A DNA stretch of 64,000 nucleotides. Source: Gigantopelta aegis. Lineage: Eukaryota > Mollusca > Gastropoda > Neomphalida > Peltospiridae. Under the pieces are notes generated by a model. That model worked only from the letters and a program-made list of their open reading frames with translations, was not told the DNA's origin and made no database searches. The translations under genes and the position numbers were made by a program. The stretch covers positions 7,552,560 through 7,616,559 of the forward strand of contig NC_054701.1 of the NCBI RefSeq assembly GCF_016097555.1, in the 5' to 3' direction. The number at the start of each line of letters is the position of its first letter. Within the stretch, counting starts at the first letter, position 1. Shown here piece after piece: positions 21,504 through 64,000 of the stretch.

Positions 21504-22033
21504 CAGTGGAAAAGTGCTCGCTTGATGCGCGGTCGATTTAGGATCGATCCCCAGTACACCATGACTGGTATATCAAAGGCCGCAGTATGTGCTATTCTGG
21601 CTATGGGATGGTGCATATAAAGGATCCCATGCTACTAATGGAAAAATGTAGCGGGTTTCTTCTCTTAGACTATATGTCAGAATTACCAAATGTTTGATAT
21701 CCAATAGCCGACAATTAATTAATCAATGCGCTCGCTCTAGTGGTATTGAATGAATGAATGAATGAATGAATGAATGTTTAACGACACCCCAGCACGAAAA
21801 ATACATCGGCTATTGGGTGTCAAATTATGGTAATGCAAATAGATAAAGTGATGATCAACATCAATATAAAAATTCAAGACTTAAACAAAAACAGTGTAAA
21901 GAACTGTGCAAAAACACAAATATCACAGAATTTTACGGATACTGAATTTTACTCAAAGAGAATGTTACACCCCTGCACCACGATGAGGTTACAGCACACG
22001 CAGGGGTAGTGGTATTGTTAAACAAAACAAAAA
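21504..22033 (+). mobile_element. SINE family B, interrupted by a LINE derivative
   Basis: Head remnants (AGTGCTCGCTTGATGCGCGG, then GGATCGATCCCC), the core (CATGACTGGTATATCAAAGG) and the B-type tail (CCAATAGCCGACAATTAATT) run to 21747. The tail resumes at about 22017 with GTTAAACAAAACAAA. The intervening 21748-22006 is a separate insertion flanked by TAGTGGTATT. Confidence 0.82.
21748..22006 (-). mobile_element. 259-bp non-autonomous LINE derivative (5' start joined to 3' end)
   Basis: Both limits are fixed by the duplicated target TAGTGGTATT (21738-21747 and 22007-22016). Read on the minus strand it starts CCCCTGCGTGTGCTGTAACC, the same first nucleotides as the full-length LINE at 51064. 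After about 50 nt it jumps to the 3' region of that family (the TTTGCACAGTTCTTTACACTG block). It ends with CTGGGGTGTCGTTAAACATT and a (CATT)n tail. It carries no coding sequence. The shared 5' start, 3' end and target duplication fit an internally deleted copy moved by the LINE's own machinery. Confidence 0.85.
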
Positions 22034-49981: not shown

Positions 49982-51063
49982 GACCCGTGAACATGTCTCT
50001 TACATCCTCGGTGGACCCGTGATCATTTCTCCTACATCAGCGGTGGACCCGTGGACACTTGGACATTTCTCTTACATCGGCGGCGGACCCGTGGACATTT
50101 CTCCTACATCGGCGGCAGACCCGTGGACATTTCTCCTACATCGGCGGCGGACCCGTGGACATTTCTCTTACATCGGCGGCGGACCCGTGGACATTTCTCT
50201 TACATCGGCGGCAGACCCGTGGACATTTATCCTACATCCTCGGCGGACTCGTGGGCATTTCTCCTACATCCTCGGCGGACCCGTGGACATTTCTCCTACA
50301 TCGGCAGCGGACCCGTGGACATTTCTTCTACATCGGCGGCGGACCCGTGGACATTTCTCCTAGATCTAACCAGCTTTGTCGCCATCGTTTAACGTGTCCA
50401 GCTATTTCCTTCTCGATGACCGTCTACTTTCGTTATAAAATGCTACCTACGTCAGCACGCCACCGACATATTTACAATTTTCCTAAAATGTTCAAACCCC
50501 TGACGTCACGATATTTGGTGTTTGAAGCACGTCACAGAACCTTTGTGGGTAGTTTCTTAATATATTACATTATACACCGTTGCAATTTAATGACACTGAT
50601 AAAAACAAAATATGTAAAGAAAATTATAGGAATGTCATAAAAATCTCTCTCACCGCTATTCCAAGCCAATCGGAATAAGTCGATTACGAATTCTCTGCGG
50701 AATGAAAGAATGAATGAATGTTTAACGACACCCCAGCACGAAAAATACATCGGCTATTGGGTGTCACACTATAGTAAATGCAAAAACATTGCTGAACAAC
50801 ATCAATATAAAAATTCAATAGTTAAATTAAAACAGTGTAAAGAACTGTGCAAAAATACAAATATCACAGTTAGATAATAGTTAAAATGTACAATAAAACG
50901 CAGTATCATGTAGGAACTGTAAAAATTTAATAAGTTCTGGATGGAATCGAAAGGATTCCATCACATTTCGTGGTCCAAATATATCTTTTCGAGTTTCTTT
51001 CAGATGGTTGCACTCCACCAAAATGTGGCGTACCGTCAGAGTACACTGACAGTGCTCACACTG

Positions 51064-51136
51064 CCCCTGCGTGTACTGTAACCTCACCGTGGTGCAGGGG
51101 TGAAACATTCTCCTTGACAATGGCTAATACAGTACA
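51064..51136 (+). ncRNA. Candidate HDV-like self-cleaving ribozyme at the LINE 5' end
   Basis: The first 73 nt can be drawn as the HDV double pseudoknot. P1 is CCCCTGC (51064-51070) with GCAGGGG (51094-51100). P2 is TGTACTGTA (51072-51080) with TACAGTACA (51128-51136), 9 of 9 pairs. P3 is ACC (51081-51083) with GGT (51091-51093), with a 7-nt loop. P4 is CATT with AATG (51106-51109 and 51119-51122), with an inner TC/GA pair. The joining strand is GCTAA (51123-51127), where the family keeps its catalytic C. A two-pair P1.1 (CA in the P3 loop with TG after P1) is possible. HDV-like ribozymes at the exact 5' end of LINEs such as R2 and L1Tc are known. They free the element's 5' end from the host transcript. 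A first pair starting with C is less usual. This was folded by hand. Confidence 0.7.
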
Positions 51137-51425
51137 ACTCCCCTTTTGGGGCGCCTTGTTTGCCGTGAGGTTCGACCCGTGAAAATGGATGATGGGATCC
51201 TGGTGATTGAGTTGGGGCATACCTGCGGGTATGACTTCTGACAATACATACTTTGGCCCGGAGTTCAAATAGACGGGTGGTCAGGTAGGCCCGACCTGAT
51301 CAATCGGCTGGTCACGCCAAGCTCGAGAGCATACAATCTTTGTTTTGTTTACAGTTAGTCAAGAGCAAACATTTTTTTTATATACCATATGTATTTGTTG
51401 CTCTTGGGGCGGTGGCTAGGGTCAA

Positions 51426-52916
51426 TTGGGTGATTTTGTATTCTTAATGCCCAAGTATATCAACCATGTATCCCTGGCATGGATGTCTGCTGGTTATCCG
51501 CAGCACCATGTCCCCTTGTTGGACCCGGTGGAGGGTGGGGGCATGGTTGATGAACATTTTTTCAAATCTAATATGGATCAACCAAAAATTATACCAAATA
51601 CAGATGGGACCCTTAAAAGGGTCCACACCGAAGTTTCGGACTTCTTGTCTTCCGACGAGGAGTCCATGAAATCGAAAACTAGTGTGAAGAAATCCAAAGT
51701 GATTTCTTCACAAAACTGGCCAAGGTTTCTCGTCATCAGTTCCACTGATGACGGAGTCTTGAATAAACTTTCACCCTTTGCCATTCAAAAGGCAATTGTT
51801 GGCTTGGCTGGTGAGCCAAAATCTGTCAAAAAAATTAAGACTGGCCTTTTGGTTGAATGTTTAACCGAAAGGCATTCTACTTGTCTTCTCAAGTCGACAG
51901 TTTTTTGCAACGTACCAATTAAGGTAACTGCGCATTCCTCCCTTAATTCGTCAAAAGGAGTTATCAGATGCAGAGATTTGGAAGGTGTTAGCGAGGAAGA
52001 AATATGCCAAAATTTACGTACACAAGGAGTTACTGCTGTGAGGAGGATAAAGGTTCGTCGAAACAATGACTTGTTACCGACGAATACTTGTATCCTCACC
52101 TTTAACGTCCCTACCCTTCCTCAATCTGTCAAAGCCGGTTACCTTAATATTCCTGTTGAACCCTTTATTCCAAACCCCTTGCGTTGCTTCAAATGCCAGC
52201 GGTTTGGCCATGGTCAGAACACATGTCGTGGAAAACTTACATGCGCTCGTTGTGGTCTATTTGACCATGACAGCAAGACATGTAAGAACGATACACTTTG
52301 TCTCAACTGCAAGGGCAACCACTGTGCATACTCGCGAGAGTGTCCGCGGTGGAAACTGGAAAAAAGAGTTCAACAGGTGAAGGTACAAAATAAACTGTCC
52401 TTCACGGATGCCAGGAGGTTGGTGGAGACAGCAACACCTACAGTCGGTGACAAGTCATATGCAGCTGCAGCTGCTGCCAAAGTCGCCACTAAAAGTGTTG
52501 CAGTCAACACAGACCTCACTTGGCATTGTGATGAAGCCAAGTACAAGAAACTGTCTGATATTGAGAAGACGCAAAAACAGGTGCAAAAAGCAGCACAAAA
52601 ACAAAAAATCACACCCTAGAAAAAGGAAATTGAAACTCAAGTGTCATTGGATTTTAAAAATCCACCAAATAGGTCGAGCACTAGTCTCCCTAAGACAGGC
52701 AATGACACAAAGAAATCTCCAAAGAAAGCTACAGAAGTACTGTCTGGTAGGCTGAAAAAGATCGAATTACGTTCGGTCCCGATCAGCAATATGTATGATA
52801 CTTTGGCTGATATCGGTGATGATGATATGGAGATTTCATCTCCAGATCATTGCCGATCACAAAGACCACCAGCAAAGCCAAAGATAAAACCCATACTTCC
52901 TCCCGATGGAAAATAA
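51426..52916 (+). pseudogene. LINE ORF1: nucleic-acid-binding protein with three CCHC knuckles, one in-frame stop
   Basis: The frame is open from 51426, with an amber codon at 52617-52619, and continues in the same frame to TAA at 52914-52916. Three zinc knuckles lie at about residues 254-267 (CFKCQRFGHGQNTC), 273-286 (CARCGLFDHDSKTC) and 292-306. An Ala-rich AAAAAAK patch and a Lys/Gln-rich helix follow. The real start may be the Met at 51573 (MDQPKIIPNTDG), because the first about 49 codons read like untranslated sequence. ORF1 proteins of this group bind the element RNA and form ribonucleoprotein particles. The stop removes the last about 98 residues (KKEIETQVSLDF...PILPPDGK), which contain no knuckle. 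A simple read-through or a functional shorter protein cannot be excluded. Confidence 0.85.
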
Positions 52917-55900
52917 AGTTATCCAGTCGAACTGTCGTGGGCTTAGGCCCAATTTTGATGAATTAAGTCTTCTAATTCAAAAGTATAATCCTTTTGCAGT
53001 GTGTCTTCAGGAAACTTTCCTGAAGGATACTGACAGTATTAACATCAGAGGATTTAATCTCTACCATAAATGTCAACAGAGTGAAAACAGAGCGTCTGGG
53101 GGCGTTTCCATTATTGTAAATGAAAACATTCCTCAGAGTGAAGTCATATTAAAGTCGACTTTACAAGCTGTGGCCGTAAAGGTCACGGCTCATAAAACTA
53201 TTACTCTCTGTTCAGTTTATTTACCCCCTCGAAACAATTACAATTTTAACACTACGGACTTTCAAGGTCTTCTTGATCAACTCCCTACTCCCTTTATTAT
53301 CATGGGAGATTTTAATGCACACCACACTTTGTGGGGATGCGATGACATAAACACTAGAGGTAAACAATTACAAGACTTAATTCTCAAAAATGACTTAATA
53401 TTACTTAATGATAAAAGTCATACATACTTTCATCCTGCAAGTGGTTCTTTCACATCCATTGATTTAACCCTTTGTAGTCCATCACTTTGTGTTGATTTCT
53501 CATGGAAAGTTTGTCCAGACCCTTGTGGTAGTGACCACTTTCCAGTTATTTTGGAGAATGATGGACCTCCATCACTTGAAAGAGTTCAGAGATGGAGGTT
53601 GACGGGGGCAAACTGGGATCAATTTCGGCATCTATGCAGCATTCGACTGCAACAAACTGCCATGACTGGTGCCGATGATCCCATGTCTTTGTTCACCTCC
53701 ATCTTGAAAGATATTGCAGAGGAAACTATTCCTAAGACTTCGGCAGTACCGAAGCGTTTCAATAAACCATGGTTCAATGAGACATGCAAAGATGCAATCA
53801 AAGAGCGAAACAGGACACTCGAGAGGTTCAAACGCGAACCTACCGGGGATAACCTGAATAGTTATCGCATTGCTCGGGCAAAGGCTCGTAAAACTATCAG
53901 ACAGAGTAAGAAATCATCTTGGAGAAATTATGTCTCCAAGTTGACTTCTCAAACATCTGTGAAATCTGTCTGGAATAGGATACGTAAAATCAAGGGAAAA
54001 GAATCCAATAATACAGTTCGCCATTTGTCTGTCAATGGCACGGATGTTACGTCTCATCGTGACATTGCCAATGCATTGCCAGACAGTTTCTCCCATAACT
54101 CTTCTTCTTCTTTCAGTACAGATGCTTTTACGTCTGTCAGAAATAAAGCTGAAAAGCAACCTATTAACTTTTCATCTGAAAATGTTGAAGTATACAACAG
54201 GCACTTCTCTTTGGAGGAGTTGCAGGACGCTCTACGTAGAGCCCATGATACTTCGGTAGGACCAGATGAAATACATTATCAACTCTTAAAACACTTACCT
54301 GAATCATCCTCAATGGTTCTATTAAATATCTTTAACAAAATCTGGATTTCGGGTGACTTTCCTTCTGATTGGAGAAAAGCCATTGTCATTCCTATTCCTA
54401 AGCCTGGTAAGGATCCAACAAATCCTACCAGTTATCGCCCTATTGCTTTGACAAGTTGCATTTGTAAAACCATGGAAAGAATGATCAACCATAGACTTGT
54501 CTGGTGTCTTGAGTCCCACAAATTGCTTACTAACGTGCAATGTGGGTTCAGGCCTAGACGTAGCACGGTCGATCATCTTGTTAGATTTGAAACGTTTTGT
54601 AGGGATGCTTTTATCCATAACCAGCATTTGGTATCGGTCTTTTTTGACCTCGAGAAAGCTTATGATACCACGTGGAAGTATGGGATTTTGAAAGACCTCC
54701 ATGGCATGGGCCTAAGAGGCCGTATGCCTGGCTTTATCTCAAATTTCTTACAGAATAGGTCGTTCAAGGTACGAGTGGGATCTACGTTATCCGATTCTCA
54801 CTCCCAAGAGATGGGTGTGCCTCAAGGTAGCATCCTGTCAGTAACTTTATTTTCCGTGAAAATTAACAGCATCACCCAGTGTTTAAAACCTGGCGTTGAT
54901 AGCTCGTTATATGTCGACGATTTTCAGATTTGCTACAGGTCGTCCAGTATGAGTATCATTGAACGTCAGTTGCAGCTTTGTTTGAATAAACTTCAACAAT
55001 GGGCAACTGACAATGGATTTCGATTCTCAAAGTCAAAAACCGTCTGTATGCATATCCGCCAGAAAAGAGGTCACCATTTAGATCCTCAGCTGTTTCTGGA
55101 CAAAACTCTAGTTCCAGTTGTGGAGGAGACCAAATTTCTGGGGGTTATTTTTGACAGGAGGCTATCTTTTGTTCCTCATTTACAGTATGTGAAAAAGAAG
55201 GGCTTGAAGGCCCTCAATATCTTAAAGGTTATTGGCAAGACTGAATGGGGGGCAGACCGAAAGGTTATGCTCCGACTTTACAGATCTTTAGTTCGGTCTA
55301 AACTTGATTATGGGTGCATTTTGTATGGGTCAGCACGTAAGTCTTACTTGCAAATGCTAGATCCTATTCACAACCAGGGACTTAGACTTTGTCTTGGTGC
55401 TTTCAAAACATCTCCTGTGGAGAGCTTGTACGTCGATGCACACGAACCTAGTTTGGGTGCTAGACGTTCAAAGCTTTCTCTGCAGTATGCTACAAAGATT
55501 AAATCAATGCCAAAACATCCTGCACACAATGCGGTGTTTGATAATAAATATATGAAATTATTTGATGCGAAACCGAATGCGATTCGGACATTTGGTCTTC
55601 CCATTAGGCAGTTTTTATCAGTTTCCAACATTGATTTAACAGACATTTTGGAAATGCCTTCATATTTTATTTTGCCACCTTGGTGTATCAAACCACCAAA
55701 AATTGTATTCAATCTTGTGCATCTTAAAAAAGATCGCACACATGCAGTTATTTATAAACAACATTTCATGGAAATCCAAGAGAGGTACTGTGATTACATT
55801 CCTGTTTACACAGACGGATCACGGGATGGGAATTCTGTGGCTTGTGCTACAGTTTTTCCATCAGACGGAATAATTTCCATGAGATTGCCCGATTCAGCAT

Positions 55901-56598
55901 CAATCTTTACTGCTGAAATTTGGGCAATCATTAAAGCCCTGGAACAGATTAAGGATTCATGTGCATCCAAATATATTATTTTTACAGACTCACTTTCGTG
56001 TCTCCATGCTCTACAGTACATGAAATTGGAGCACCCCTTAGTTGGAATGGTGATACGAAAGTGTGTCTTTTTATCAATTGCCAATAAAGATGTTATATTT
56101 TGTTGGGTACCCAGCCATGTCGGCATTAGGGGTAACGAAAAGGCAGATGTTGCTGCCAAGTCTGCTTTGAACATGCCCCGTGTCCGTGTTGGTGTCCCCT
56201 ACAGTGATTTTAAATTTCATATAAAGCAATATATCTTTTCGACTTGGCAAGACGATTGGGACGGTGCGGTTGCGAACAAGCTTCATTCTGTCAAAGCAGT
56301 CCTGGGAGAGTGGCAGTCATCCTACAGGCGATGCAGGAAGGATGAAGTAGTCTTGTGCCGTGCCCGCATCGGCCATACATATTTGACGCATTCATTTATT
56401 TTAAAGAAGGACCCTCCCCCTCTGTGTGAACATTGTCAGTGTACACTGACTGTGCGTCACATTTTGGTGGAGTGTGATCATCTCAAGCCGACGAGAAATG
56501 ATATATTTGGCAACAGAAATGTTTTGGAATCTTTTAAATTCCACCCAGAATTAATTGTAAAGTTTTTAAAACACTTTGACTTCTATACAAAGTTTTAA
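52906..56598 (+). CDS. LINE ORF2: endonuclease, reverse transcriptase and RNase H (1230 aa), intact
   Basis: The endonuclease occupies residues 1 to about 225: SNCRGL (8-13), QET (35-37), GDFN (134-137), SIDL (184-187) and GSDHFPV (208-214). The reverse transcriptase follows, with GPDEI, PIPKPGKDP and SYRPIAL in the fingers, CGFRPRRST, FFDLEKAYD with D581, GVPQGSILS and YVDD (669-672). RNase H has all four acidic residues: D970 in YTDGS, E1004, D1028 in FTDS and D1081 in GNEKAD. The C-terminus has a knuckle, C1174-x2-C1177-x7-H1185-x4-C1190. No stop or frame change interrupts it, and every catalytic residue I can place is present. In such LINEs this protein nicks target DNA and copies the RNA in place. 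The start codon overlaps the end of ORF1 by 11 nt (ATGGAAAATAA), so translation probably depends on reinitiation after ORF1. Confidence 0.93.
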   Translation: MENKVIQSNCRGLRPNFDELSLLIQKYNPFAVCLQETFLKDTDSINIRGFNLYHKCQQSENRASGGVSIIVNENIPQSEVILKSTLQAVAVKVTAHKTITLCSVYLPPRNNYNFNTTDFQGLLDQLPTPFIIMGDFNAHHTLWGCDDINTRGKQLQDLILKNDLILLNDKSHTYFHPASGSFTSIDLTLCSPSLCVDFSWKVCPDPCGSDHFPVILENDGPPSLERVQRWRLTGANWDQFRHLCSIRLQQTAMTGADDPMSLFTSILKDIAEETIPKTSAVPKRFNKPWFNETCKDAIKERNRTLERFKREPTGDNLNSYRIARAKARKTIRQSKKSSWRNYVSKLTSQTSVKSVWNRIRKIKGKESNNTVRHLSVNGTDVTSHRDIANALPDSFSHNSSSSFSTDAFTSVRNKAEKQPINFSSENVEVYNRHFSLEELQDALRRAHDTSVGPDEIHYQLLKHLPESSSMVLLNIFNKIWISGDFPSDWRKAIVIPIPKPGKDPTNPTSYRPIALTSCICKTMERMINHRLVWCLESHKLLTNVQCGFRPRRSTVDHLVRFETFCRDAFIHNQHLVSVFFDLEKAYDTTWKYGILKDLHGMGLRGRMPGFISNFLQNRSFKVRVGSTLSDSHSQEMGVPQGSILSVTLFSVKINSITQCLKPGVDSSLYVDDFQICYRSSSMSIIERQLQLCLNKLQQWATDNGFRFSKSKTVCMHIRQKRGHHLDPQLFLDKTLVPVVEETKFLGVIFDRRLSFVPHLQYVKKKGLKALNILKVIGKTEWGADRKVMLRLYRSLVRSKLDYGCILYGSARKSYLQMLDPIHNQGLRLCLGAFKTSPVESLYVDAHEPSLGARRSKLSLQYATKIKSMPKHPAHNAVFDNKYMKLFDAKPNAIRTFGLPIRQFLSVSNIDLTDILEMPSYFILPPWCIKPPKIVFNLVHLKKDRTHAVIYKQHFMEIQERYCDYIPVYTDGSRDGNSVACATVFPSDGIISMRLPDSASIFTAEIWAIIKALEQIKDSCASKYIIFTDSLSCLHALQYMKLEHPLVGMVIRKCVFLSIANKDVIFCWVPSHVGIRGNEKADVAAKSALNMPRVRVGVPYSDFKFHIKQYIFSTWQDDWDGAVANKLHSVKAVLGEWQSSYRRCRKDEVVLCRARIGHTYLTHSFILKKDPPPLCEHCQCTLTVRHILVECDHLKPTRNDIFGNRNVLESFKFHPELIVKFLKHFDFYTKF

Positions 56599-56808
56599 AA
56601 TGTACTCACTTTGACTTCTATACAAAGTTTTAAAATGTAGTTACCTTGATTTTATGTATTGTATTATACTTTTTTCCCCACAGCTCCTTACACTGTGGTT
56701 TTACATGAATATATATAAATAATATTTCCATATACTTACCATTTGTGACACCCAATAGCCGATATGTATTTTTGTGCTGGGGTGTCGTTAAACAAACATT
56801 CATTCATT
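56599..56808 (+). other. LINE 3' UTR and tail
   Basis: It contains a short duplication just after the ORF2 stop (ACTTTGACTTCTATACAAAG appears twice), then CACAGCTCCTTACACTGTGG, a short hairpin. The conserved 3' block GACACCCAATAGCCGATATG, CTGGGGTGTCGTTAAACA and three CATT units follow. The same end terminates the other copies of the family and is probably the recognition site for its own reverse transcriptase. Confidence 0.8.
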
Positions 56809-56925
56809 GTGCTCACACTGAGGTGGAGGATCCTTCTTCAAAATAAAAGAATGGGTCAAGTAAGTATGACCGATGCTGGCACGACACAAGACTATTTCAT
56901 CCTTCCTGCACTGTCTATAGACCGT

Positions 56926-57114
56926 CCAGTGTTCGAGATAAAAAAAATTGGGCAGTATCCCAGTTGGATACTAACATTTCAAAATCTGGTATCCCACCTG
57001 AGAATTTAGTATTATATGGTATCCCGGTGGGATACTGGGTTCTTGAAGTCTGGTATCCAAAATTAAATTCTGGTATCCCCAGGATATCGGGATACCGTTA
57101 ATCTCGAACACTGG
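56926..57114. mobile_element. 189-bp MITE inserted in the older LINE
   Basis: Perfect 14-bp inverted termini CCAGTGTTCGAGAT and ATCTCGAACACTGG. CCGT lies just outside both (56922-56925 and 57115-57118). The interior repeats the word TGGTATCC about five times in both orientations with GGGATACC. No coding capacity. The superfamily is not identified. Confidence 0.75.
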
Positions 57115-57928
57115 CCGTCCCAATCACGTTGCCAAGTCGAACAGATAAATTTGTTGATATTATTTTTAAAATCAGTATAAGGTACACCAACGCTGGCATG
57201 AGGCAAATCCAAAGCAGACTTGGCAGCTGAATCTGCCTTTTCATTACCCCTGCTGCCAACATGGCTGGACACTTTCGTATCACCATCTCAATTAAGGGAT
57301 GGTCCAGCTTCATATTGCGCAAAGCTTGGAGACACGAAAGTGAGTCAGTAAAAATAATAAACTTGGATGCTATGGAATCTTTGATTTCTTCTAAGGCTTT
57401 AATGACTGCCCAAACTTCAGCACTAAAACTTGATGCCGAGTCAGGCAGTCTCATGGAAGTAATAGTGTCTGATAGGAAAAACGGTAGCACAAGCCACAGA
57501 ATTCCCATCCCGTGATCCATCTGTATACACAGGAATGTAATCACGGTACTTGTCCTGAATGTCCATGAAAAACTGTTTATACATAACAGCATCTGTACGA
57601 TCTTTCTTCAGATGCGAAAGATCAAACACAATTTTAGGTGGTGTAATACACCATGGTGGTAAAACAAAATATGAAGGAGTTTTCAAAGTGTCTGATAATC
57701 AATGTTAGAAAGCGACAAAAAACGCTTAATGCGAAGACCAAATGTACGAATAGCATTTAGCCTTGCATCAAACAACTTCATATATTTGTTGTCAAACACC
57801 GCATCATGTGTTGGATGTGTTGGTAAAGATTTAATCTTGGCAGCATACTGCAGAGAAAGCTTGACACGTCTAGCACCCAAACAAGGTTTGTGTGCATCAA
57901 CGTACAAGCTTTCTACAACAGATGTTTT

Positions 57929-62958: not shown

Positions 62959-64000
62959 GGGTCTTATGCATGAACCGAAACAATGACGAAGTCCCAGACT
63001 ATTTACGGACGTCGAGACTTTCACGAGTAAATCGGAATGCATGAACATGGACAAGTCAAAGTCACTGCAGATTGGACGGACGAAATTACGCGATTTTTAG
63101 ACCTGCTATAACCCAGGCGTAAACGCAGTAGTTTCGGACAACTGGGCATTTAGTATGGCGGCGGTTATACTGATGCGTTACAACAACACACGTGCTATTC
63201 GAAGAAACAGAATATTTCGAGATGTCACACATCCTTTGGAGATATATGATGATATTGAGATATATAAGAAATTTCGATGTGATAGGTACATGATTTTACA
63301 ACTAACCGACGAGCTGTATGAGGATATTGCTTATCCATTAACACGAAATGGGTCGCTAACCCCCGTGTTACAAGTGCTTGTTGCTCTTAGGTTTTATGCA
63401 ACGGGAACATTTTAGAATGTTATAGGCGACTTAATAGGCGTCGACCAGTCCACAGTTAGTCGTACAGTGTCAAGAGTGACCGACGCATTCCTTCGGCATA
63501 TAAACGAATACATCGTTTGGCCAAATCAGACACAGGCAGATGAAACGAAGTTAAAAAAATTCCAAATGAGACGCTTTGTAAGTGTTATTGGTTGCATAGA
63601 TGGGACACACATCCGCATCCAGGCTCTAGCTCAAGAGGAACACGAATTTATAAACAGAAAAAATGTCCATTCTATTAATGTCCACAAACAGTTTGTTTAA
63701 ATATTATACTGTACACCGGTGCTACGGTTTCCTTTACACATTCTTTGATCATTGTAAATTTATTTAAATTAAATTATAAGTTAAACATCTGTTATAAAAT
63801 TTATTATTTGTGTCATTTTCAGGTGATATGTGATGCTGATATGTGCTTCATCAATGTCATAGCCAAATGGCCTGGGTCAGTGCACGACGCGCGAATTTTG
63901 AGACAATCGCCCCTGTTTGCGGACTATGAAGAAAACAAACCTCCACTAAACGGCATTATACTGGAAGATAGTGGATACATGGCTCGAACGTGGCTCATGA
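62959..64000 (+). mobile_element. Second PIF/Harbinger element, running off the window
   Basis: The left end is placed at 62959 (GGGTCTTATGCATGAACC) because the satellite unit stops exactly after CAGCATCAG. CAG would be the target, as in the first Harbinger element. The transposase gene begins at 63155 on the same strand. The right end is outside the window, so the target duplication cannot be confirmed. It is a different lineage from the element at 7818-10416, judged by the protein. Confidence 0.75.
63155..64000 (+). pseudogene. HARBI1-like transposase, partial, one in-frame stop and a possible intron
   Basis: It starts MAAVILMRYNNTRAIRRNRI and has the helical N-terminal domain (TPVLQVLVALRFYATGTF). 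A TAG codon follows at 63413, where a Gln is usual, and then NVIGDLIGVDQSTVSRTVSR. The DDE domain shows SVIGCIDGTHIRIQA with its first Asp intact, then INRKNVHSINV. After an interruption it continues VICDADMCFINVIAKWPGSV, HDARI with the second Asp, and ILEDSGYMARTWLM at the window edge. The interruption at about 63680-63822 could be a GT-AG intron in phase 0 with a pyrimidine-rich acceptor (TGTCATTTTCAG). The donor is weak, and a small insertion is the alternative. Confidence 0.8.

Follow-up and report, generated by a model that had tools for sequence, protein, structure and literature searches.

A probable I-superfamily LINE of the mollusc Gigantopelta aegis begins with 73 nt that have the structure of an HDV-like ribozyme, and we consider it very probable (roughly 0.86) that this segment is self-cleaving, releasing the element from co-transcripts and setting its 5' end. 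The element lies on contig NC_054701.1, within the 64,000-nt stretch of DNA that was analysed as a whole (the window), and the same 5' segment also heads a class of short elements in this genome.

Table 1. Positions of the LINE, its predicted ribozyme and a short relative in the window
Feature	Position	Strand	Basis and remarks
HDV-like ribozyme, 73 nt	51064..51136	+	RF02682 28.3 bits, descriptor scan and shuffles, P2 covariation between subfamilies; predicted cut just before 51064
P1	51064-51070 CCCCTGC with 51094-51100 GCAGGGG	+	7 bp
P2	51072-51080 TGTACTGTA with 51128-51136 TACAGTACA	+	perfect 9 bp, 47 nt between strands
P3	51081-51083 ACC with 51091-51093 GGT	+	3 bp; closes L3 TCACCGT (51084-51090)
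P1.1 (proposed)	51085-51086 with 51101-51102	+	2 bp, C-G and A-U, between L3 and J1/4
P4 hairpin	51106-51112 CATTCTC, loop CTT, 51116-51122 GACAATG	+	one C-C mismatch
J4/2 GCTAA	51123-51127	+	candidate catalytic C at 51124; leads into P2 3' strand
Left target-site duplication GTGCTCACACTG	51052..51063	+	12 bp, identical to 56809-56820
Right target-site duplication GTGCTCACACTG	56809..56820	+	identical to 51052-51063
ORF1, gag-like	51447..52619	+	first in-frame ATG 51447; three C-x2-C...H...C knuckles by eye; TAG at 52617
ORF2, 1230 aa	52906..56598	+	Pfam PF14529, PF03372, PF00078, PF00075: APE endonuclease, RT, RNase H, in that order
3' UTR and tail ending ATTCATTCATT	56599..56808	+	locally alignable to tail of short copy L076
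Short internally deleted relative, 259 nt	21748..22006	-	first 55 nt of ribozyme joined to body and tail; AATACCACTA duplications

The LINE and the fold of its first 73 nt

Because the 12-bp duplication flanks both ends, the element spans 51064-56808, and the original prediction that this duplication fixes the 5' end was borne out by the insertion site itself. The LINE is inserted antisense in ORF2 of an older relative; when the element and one copy of the duplication are removed, the older ORF2 is continuous across the joint, with 75 of 100 columns identical between the rejoined frame and residues 1133-1230 of the window LINE ORF2. The older LINE, now decayed, occupies about 50700-57700 on the minus strand, with 53-75% protein identity in pieces. 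In the window copy, the ORF1 frame ends (52617-52619) 286 nt before the start codon of ORF2, and ORF1 gave no Pfam match. The order APE-RT-RNase H in ORF2 is a mark of the I superfamily, in agreement with the I-group placement proposed earlier, and the element is probably a mollusc I-superfamily LINE. Elsewhere in the window, two plus-strand frames at 63155-63999 resemble a PIF/Harbinger-type transposase.

The predicted HDV-type double pseudoknot was recovered with all stems in the proposed order, including the perfect 9-bp P2 and the GCTAA joining strand (Table 1). P1, P3, the P2 pseudoknot, P1.1 and the J4/2 cytosine, the structural hallmarks of the HDV-like class, are all present, and cleavage is predicted. 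A single G separates the 5' strands of P1 and P2, J1/4 is 5 nt long in the window copy, and the P1.1 pairs there are assigned on our assumption of analogy with HDV. Among the listed copies the C-C mismatch in P4 is private to the window copy; the commonest P4 3' strand elsewhere is GAGAATG, which has no mismatch, so that the usual P4 is 7 bp. In an alignment of 30 distinct sequences, the candidate catalytic cytosine is invariant (30/30), and the proportion of paired cells is 98.1% in P1 (whose cleavage site is itself a prediction), 98.9% in P3, 93.3% in P2 and 98.3% in P1.1, the last of which carries little information since it is nearly invariant. One feature counts against the ribozyme reading: nt 1 of HDV ribozyme is G, whereas nt 1 of the LINE ribozyme is C. 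A second ribozyme family of the same genome, which scores above the Rfam threshold, likewise begins with C.

No Rfam model reached its gathering score in a scan of the whole window, so that the argument is independent of any annotated Rfam match. When thresholds were relaxed for 51050-51160, RF02682 (HDV-F-prausnitzii) aligned from its first to its last model position at 51064-51137, with an E-value of 5.6e-4, followed by RF00094 (18.9 bits, E 0.54, vs. a gathering score of 50) and drz-agam-1 (11.9 bits, E 3.9). RF02682 also aligned over model positions 1-74 at all four of the other loci given to it, namely two LINEs (L041, subfamily A, 32.9 bits; L089, subfamily C, 26.8 bits) and two short elements (L076, 29.5 bits; L077, 28.3 bits). 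The covariance-model check suggested in the original prediction thus succeeded in yielding a full-length alignment to the best-matching model; however, the scores of this family (26.8-32.9 bits) all fall under the RF02682 gathering score of 44, and by the gathering rule the LINE ribozyme is a member of neither RF02682 nor RF00094.

Could such a structure arise by chance pairing in a G+C-rich 5' UTR? Nested minimum-free-energy folding, in which the pseudoknot is not representable, lends this idea some support, as it returned a different nested fold with a z-score of just -1.4, and 20 of 200 shuffles fold as well. By contrast, a descriptor requiring a P1 of 7, a P3 of 3, at least 6 perfect pairs in P2, at least 4 in P4 and a C in J4/2 matched only the 51064 site when both strands of the window were scanned, and one match occurred in 240 dinucleotide-preserving shuffles of the window, as expected from the earlier argument that a coincidence of these features would be unlikely. 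Together with the exact position of the match at the first base of the element, the covariance-model alignment and the covariation in P2 described below, these counts make chance pairing exceedingly improbable.

Genomic copies, subfamilies and P2 covariation

The 5' 237 bases of the LINE were searched against the 1.15-Gb genome, giving at least 41 matches (40 of 1,050 candidates scored), and 38 loci were fetched. Among the 40 copies in these loci, one of which (in L018) belongs to subfamily B, 34 begin at nt 1 and the other six at nt 3 to 11, a sample biased toward complete 5' ends because the query held the 5' end. Two of the 40 (L024 and L033, at G000:C13:16662951 and 16305281) have common flanks; their first 80 nt and 12-nt upstream flanks are identical, which points to duplication of a genomic segment, or to a haplotype that was retained, and not to two separate insertions. 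Target duplications of this LINE are 9-19 nt long and occur at varied sites. With the window included, duplications of at least 7 nt were detected in 18 of 41 rows by a script limited to ends 0-2 nt before nt 1, 17 at offset 0 and one at offset 1, where all adjacent letters are T. In eleven of the other rows the fetched stretch lacks a tail motif; the remaining 12 have a tail but lack a duplication of this kind, and they include the six copies that start inward of nt 1. A sample of 20 sites obtained with a core pattern that begins only at ribozyme nt 18 gave a comparable picture of the 5' end, with 19 sites starting at CCCC.

Three LINE subfamilies can be distinguished, whose P2 strands differ yet stay complementary. 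P2 is TGTACTGTA/TACAGTACA in subfamily A, mostly (C/T)GTGCTGTA/TACAGCACA in subfamily B and the short elements, and TGTGCATTA/TAAATGCACA in subfamily C, which was first seen in L089. In the 30-sequence alignment, 96.4% of 840 cells are paired, compared with 27-58% in slid controls. Pair 12 of P2 is G-C in 18 and A-U in 11 of the 30 sequences, pair 14 is U-A or A-U depending on the subfamily, pair 15 is G-C in 29 and U-A in one, and the outermost pair is open in 14. Both-sided changes amount to 12 cells in 2 pairs, pair 14 being hidden by the gap placed in L089, where it forms if the bulge is moved. The covariation score was reached by none of 500 shuffles, while two of the five shuffle measures were unexceptional (the number of pairs with both-sided changes was reached by 56/500 and the number of further pair types by 498/500). 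Twenty further copies of subfamily C, drawn from the 40 identified and restricted to those whose alignment starts at nt 1, carry the exchanges at pairs 14 and 15 without exception, and 18 of 21 subfamily C copies have a fully Watson-Crick P2 core (7/7); the subfamily changes nevertheless trace back to two or three ancestral events, each seen in numerous copies. Compensatory changes had been anticipated in both P1 and P2. They were found in P2 between subfamilies, but not in P1, which hardly varies and therefore gives no such support; as P1, P3 and P4 are all devoid of both-sided changes in the 30-sequence alignment, the covariation support is confined to P2. Identity among subfamilies A, B and C is 82-90% in the ribozyme vs. 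76-84% downstream to nt 280, a modest difference. The alignment excluded sequences that are 5' truncated or damaged in P2 (L042, L022:299, L028, L031, L036, L038, L085, L087, L018:6605-6676 and window 21938-22006), the masked L081, the divergent L047, the repeated units of L096 and identical sequences.

These patterns bear on the possibility that the conserved 73 nt act chiefly as an internal promoter from which transcription begins at nt 1, with the fold being secondary. A promoter would likewise yield fixed 5' ends, and in L1Tc a promoter and a ribozyme are described within the same 77-nt 5' segment in the available parts of two reports (PMC8256844; PMC8190864). However, conservation in this LINE tracks the HDV pairing, including the long-range P2 with its both-sided changes between subfamilies, none of which a promoter needs, and the two functions are mutually compatible. 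We therefore regard a mainly promoter-based explanation as improbable.

The fold is also kept by most individual copies. P1 (7/7), P3 (3/3), the P2 core (7/7) and the J4/2 C motif are jointly intact in 75 of 99 distinct copies, and the C motif is kept in 93 of the 99, which agrees with the original prediction that copies of the family should retain P1 and P2 complementarity and, in most cases, the J4/2 cytosine. The census counts L024 and L033 once, because their sequences are identical, and does the same for two identical L096 units. It omits L047, the second ribozyme family and L001-L008, which repeat loci already fetched, and it missed L036, whose core is mutated. L085, placed in its class 'B-LINE', looks like a short element, and the second L037 copy, placed in 'SIDE/other', belongs to subfamily A. 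The remaining 24 copies, which include truncated and masked copies and tandem-array units, fail at least one of the four tests, and they are what might be expected if a once-active ribozyme had become a relic in recent copies. The P4 mismatch of the window copy, the loss of half of the ribozyme in one short copy of the window, and a few lesions common to two copies (L092/L093 in P1, L104/L106 in P2) point in the same direction. Against this stand the 75 copies that pass all four tests and the complementary P2 strands kept in each of the subfamilies A, B and C, and we consider a relic very unlikely, somewhat more so than a mere promoter.

A self-cleaving ribozyme would account for these observations as follows. 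The element would be transcribed within a longer host RNA, in which the ribozyme would fold and cut just upstream of nt 1, leaving an RNA with a defined 5' end and the ribozyme still attached; the reverse transcriptase of the element would then copy the released RNA at a nicked target. Because the RNA copied would have a defined 5' end, complete copies would start at nt 1 and carry the ribozyme to the new site. Such a scheme, in which the ribozyme frees the element, fixes its 5' end and is recopied since it lies downstream of the cut, is described for R2 and L1Tc in the portions available of PMC3414825, PMC3774820 and PMC4035085. The mollusc LINE fits this scheme in its exact junctions, in its conserved fold and in its short relatives, which keep little besides ribozyme and tail.

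Short ribozyme-plus-tail elements and other ribozyme loci

The original prediction correctly placed a ribozyme at the 5' end of the LINE, but missed a short form of many copies that joins the ribozyme to a tail. A genome-wide search for the core pattern ACCTCNNCGTGGTGNNNGGGN gave 7,077 matches, and its reversed control gave 0. The sites read were the first 20 listed, all on one contig, and in 12 of them the tail motif appears 251-286 nt from nt 1, corresponding to elements of about 250-290 nt. As for the others, L089 represents a LINE of subfamily C, L081 is N-masked beyond nt 62, and L086 and L087 pass into different sequence; L085 is the one site of the 20 that does not start at CCCC. In L076, body and tail could be aligned locally with about 177 bases of the LINE 3' end, the last 60 aligning best. 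Clear duplications end at nt 1 in L080 (14 nt) and L082 (11 nt), and the window short copy is also flanked by duplications, while those of L088, L091 and L094 (10-12 nt) stop 2-3 nt before nt 1, owing in part to truncation of the stretch. At least 12 of the 20 are SIDEs, a class defined by a 5' ribozyme joined to a LINE 3' end and by target duplications, and they would use the same LINE machinery for their own insertion. The short copy in the window lacks the P4 3' strand, J4/2 and the P2 3' strand.

Genome-wide, the exact ribozyme-to-body junction pattern has 3,477 matches, and exact patterns of the P2 3' region have 104 for subfamily A, 135 for C and 696 for B-like sequences, the last count including the AAATCCCC form found in the short element L085. 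No tRNA genes were found in any of the 12 short loci submitted (of 20 sampled), i.e., these have no tRNA-type head, and one B-box match with 2 mismatches, in L076, compares with a chance expectation of 0.29. We tentatively propose, at somewhat short of even odds, that this class of short retroposons swaps the Pol III promoter of SINEs for self-cleavage from host transcripts, and that it seeded tandem ribozyme arrays with units of 57 and 69 nt. If this is true, thousands of copies scatter self-cleaving modules through host genes, and the 57-nt and 69-nt arrays may themselves cut RNA.

Two such arrays were observed. At L096 (G000:C1:19288000-19288330), ribozyme nt 1 to about 57 are repeated in tandem as 57-nt units, and the array ends in one complete ribozyme with the body of the short element. 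At L047 (1503-3066; G000:C11 near 4252134), a divergent copy of the LINE ribozyme whose J1/4 contains GGCAAC stands at the head of a tandem array, made up of 22.4 units of 69 nt without the 5' strands of P1 and P2. A genome search with RF00094 gave one weak match (31.1 bits, E 6.21), and matches under the cut-off also occurred in 4 of 14 control genomes; the match proved to be this related ribozyme heading the 69-nt array.

The same genome also contains a second, unrelated HDV-like ribozyme family. A search with RF02682 gave at least 61 matches, 21 of them over the gathering cut-off (62 of 44,002 candidates scored), whereas among the 14 control genomes there were matches under the cut-off in six and over it in none. 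All 28 of the matches read represent this second family (loci L048-L075, L097, L098) and not the LINE. Its P1 is mostly CTTGTTC, with CCTACTC in L052 and L069, and GGGCAAC follows the P1 3' strand. Since a similar upstream sequence (about TTTGGTATAT) precedes the ribozyme in 27 of the 28 loci read, the ribozyme does not look like the first base of an element. L097 (1-1101) has a long inverted repeat whose 153-nt arms are 93% complementary; one arm contains the ribozyme and the other holds part of it in antisense, a foldback-like setting that would be unusual; L098, also a member of this family, has no such long inverted repeat. Other P1 sequences with the same core as the LINE ribozyme gave 12 matches, of which 11 fit the second family by their P1 3' letters and one is a shifted copy of the LINE ribozyme itself.

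Relation to known ribozymes and implications

Baggins is an I-group (LOA) element. HDV-like cleavage at the element 5' end is reported for R4, Dong, baggins, L1Tc, RTE and Drosophila R2 in the text available of PMC3774820, and excerpts of a further paper mention HDV-like ribozymes for R2 and other LINEs (PMC7761336; for an R2 survey, likewise in excerpt, see PMC13188248). The ribozymes of R4, Dong, baggins and RTE likewise cut at the 5' end, in other LINE clades (PMC3774820, same text). R2 of Drosophila and other animals has the same double-pseudoknot order at its 5' end as the present LINE, and the cores are very close, as can be seen from the R2 primer AAAACCTCCTCGTGGTRTY (PMC3414825, in part) vs. 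AACCTCACCGTGGTGCA in this LINE. R2 SIDEs likewise comprise a 5' ribozyme and a 3' end, and are given as rare examples in Drosophila in the accessible part of that paper (PMC3414825). However, R2 sits in 28S rRNA genes and its SIDEs are rare (PMC3414825, as before), whereas this LINE encodes APE and RNase H, inserts at varied sites and has a junction pattern with thousands of matches. A second parallel is provided by the ingi-clade element L1Tc, whose Pr77, together with NARTc/SIDER, likewise represents an HDV-like ribozyme on a LINE and its short non-autonomous relatives according to portions of PMC4035085 and PMC8256844; L1Tc/Pr77 of trypanosomatids differs from this LINE in host, sequence and element organisation.

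In molluscs, the available text of a bivalve transposon survey lists Nimb, Ingi and one unknown among I-superfamily clades, with Ingi placed in the I superfamily, and the word 'ribozyme' is absent from that text (PMC10294476). Within the open-access literature, we found no description of an HDV-like ribozyme in a mollusc I-superfamily LINE, as the original prediction had supposed, and nothing relevant on Nimb/Tad1 with HDV ribozymes or on the LINE tail sequence. Because 5' HDV-like ribozymes and SIDEs are known elsewhere and none was found described here, the finding represents a known kind of ribozyme in a new LINE lineage, with an unusual abundance of the short form.

Taken together, the results add a LINE, probably of the mollusc I superfamily, to those with 5' HDV-like ribozymes, and indicate that ribozyme-plus-tail elements can reach SINE-like numbers outside rDNA. 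The three subfamilies with matched P2 strands and the thousands of natural variants form a library for structure-function work, and the same variants could be used to ask whether such elements ride on host transcripts.
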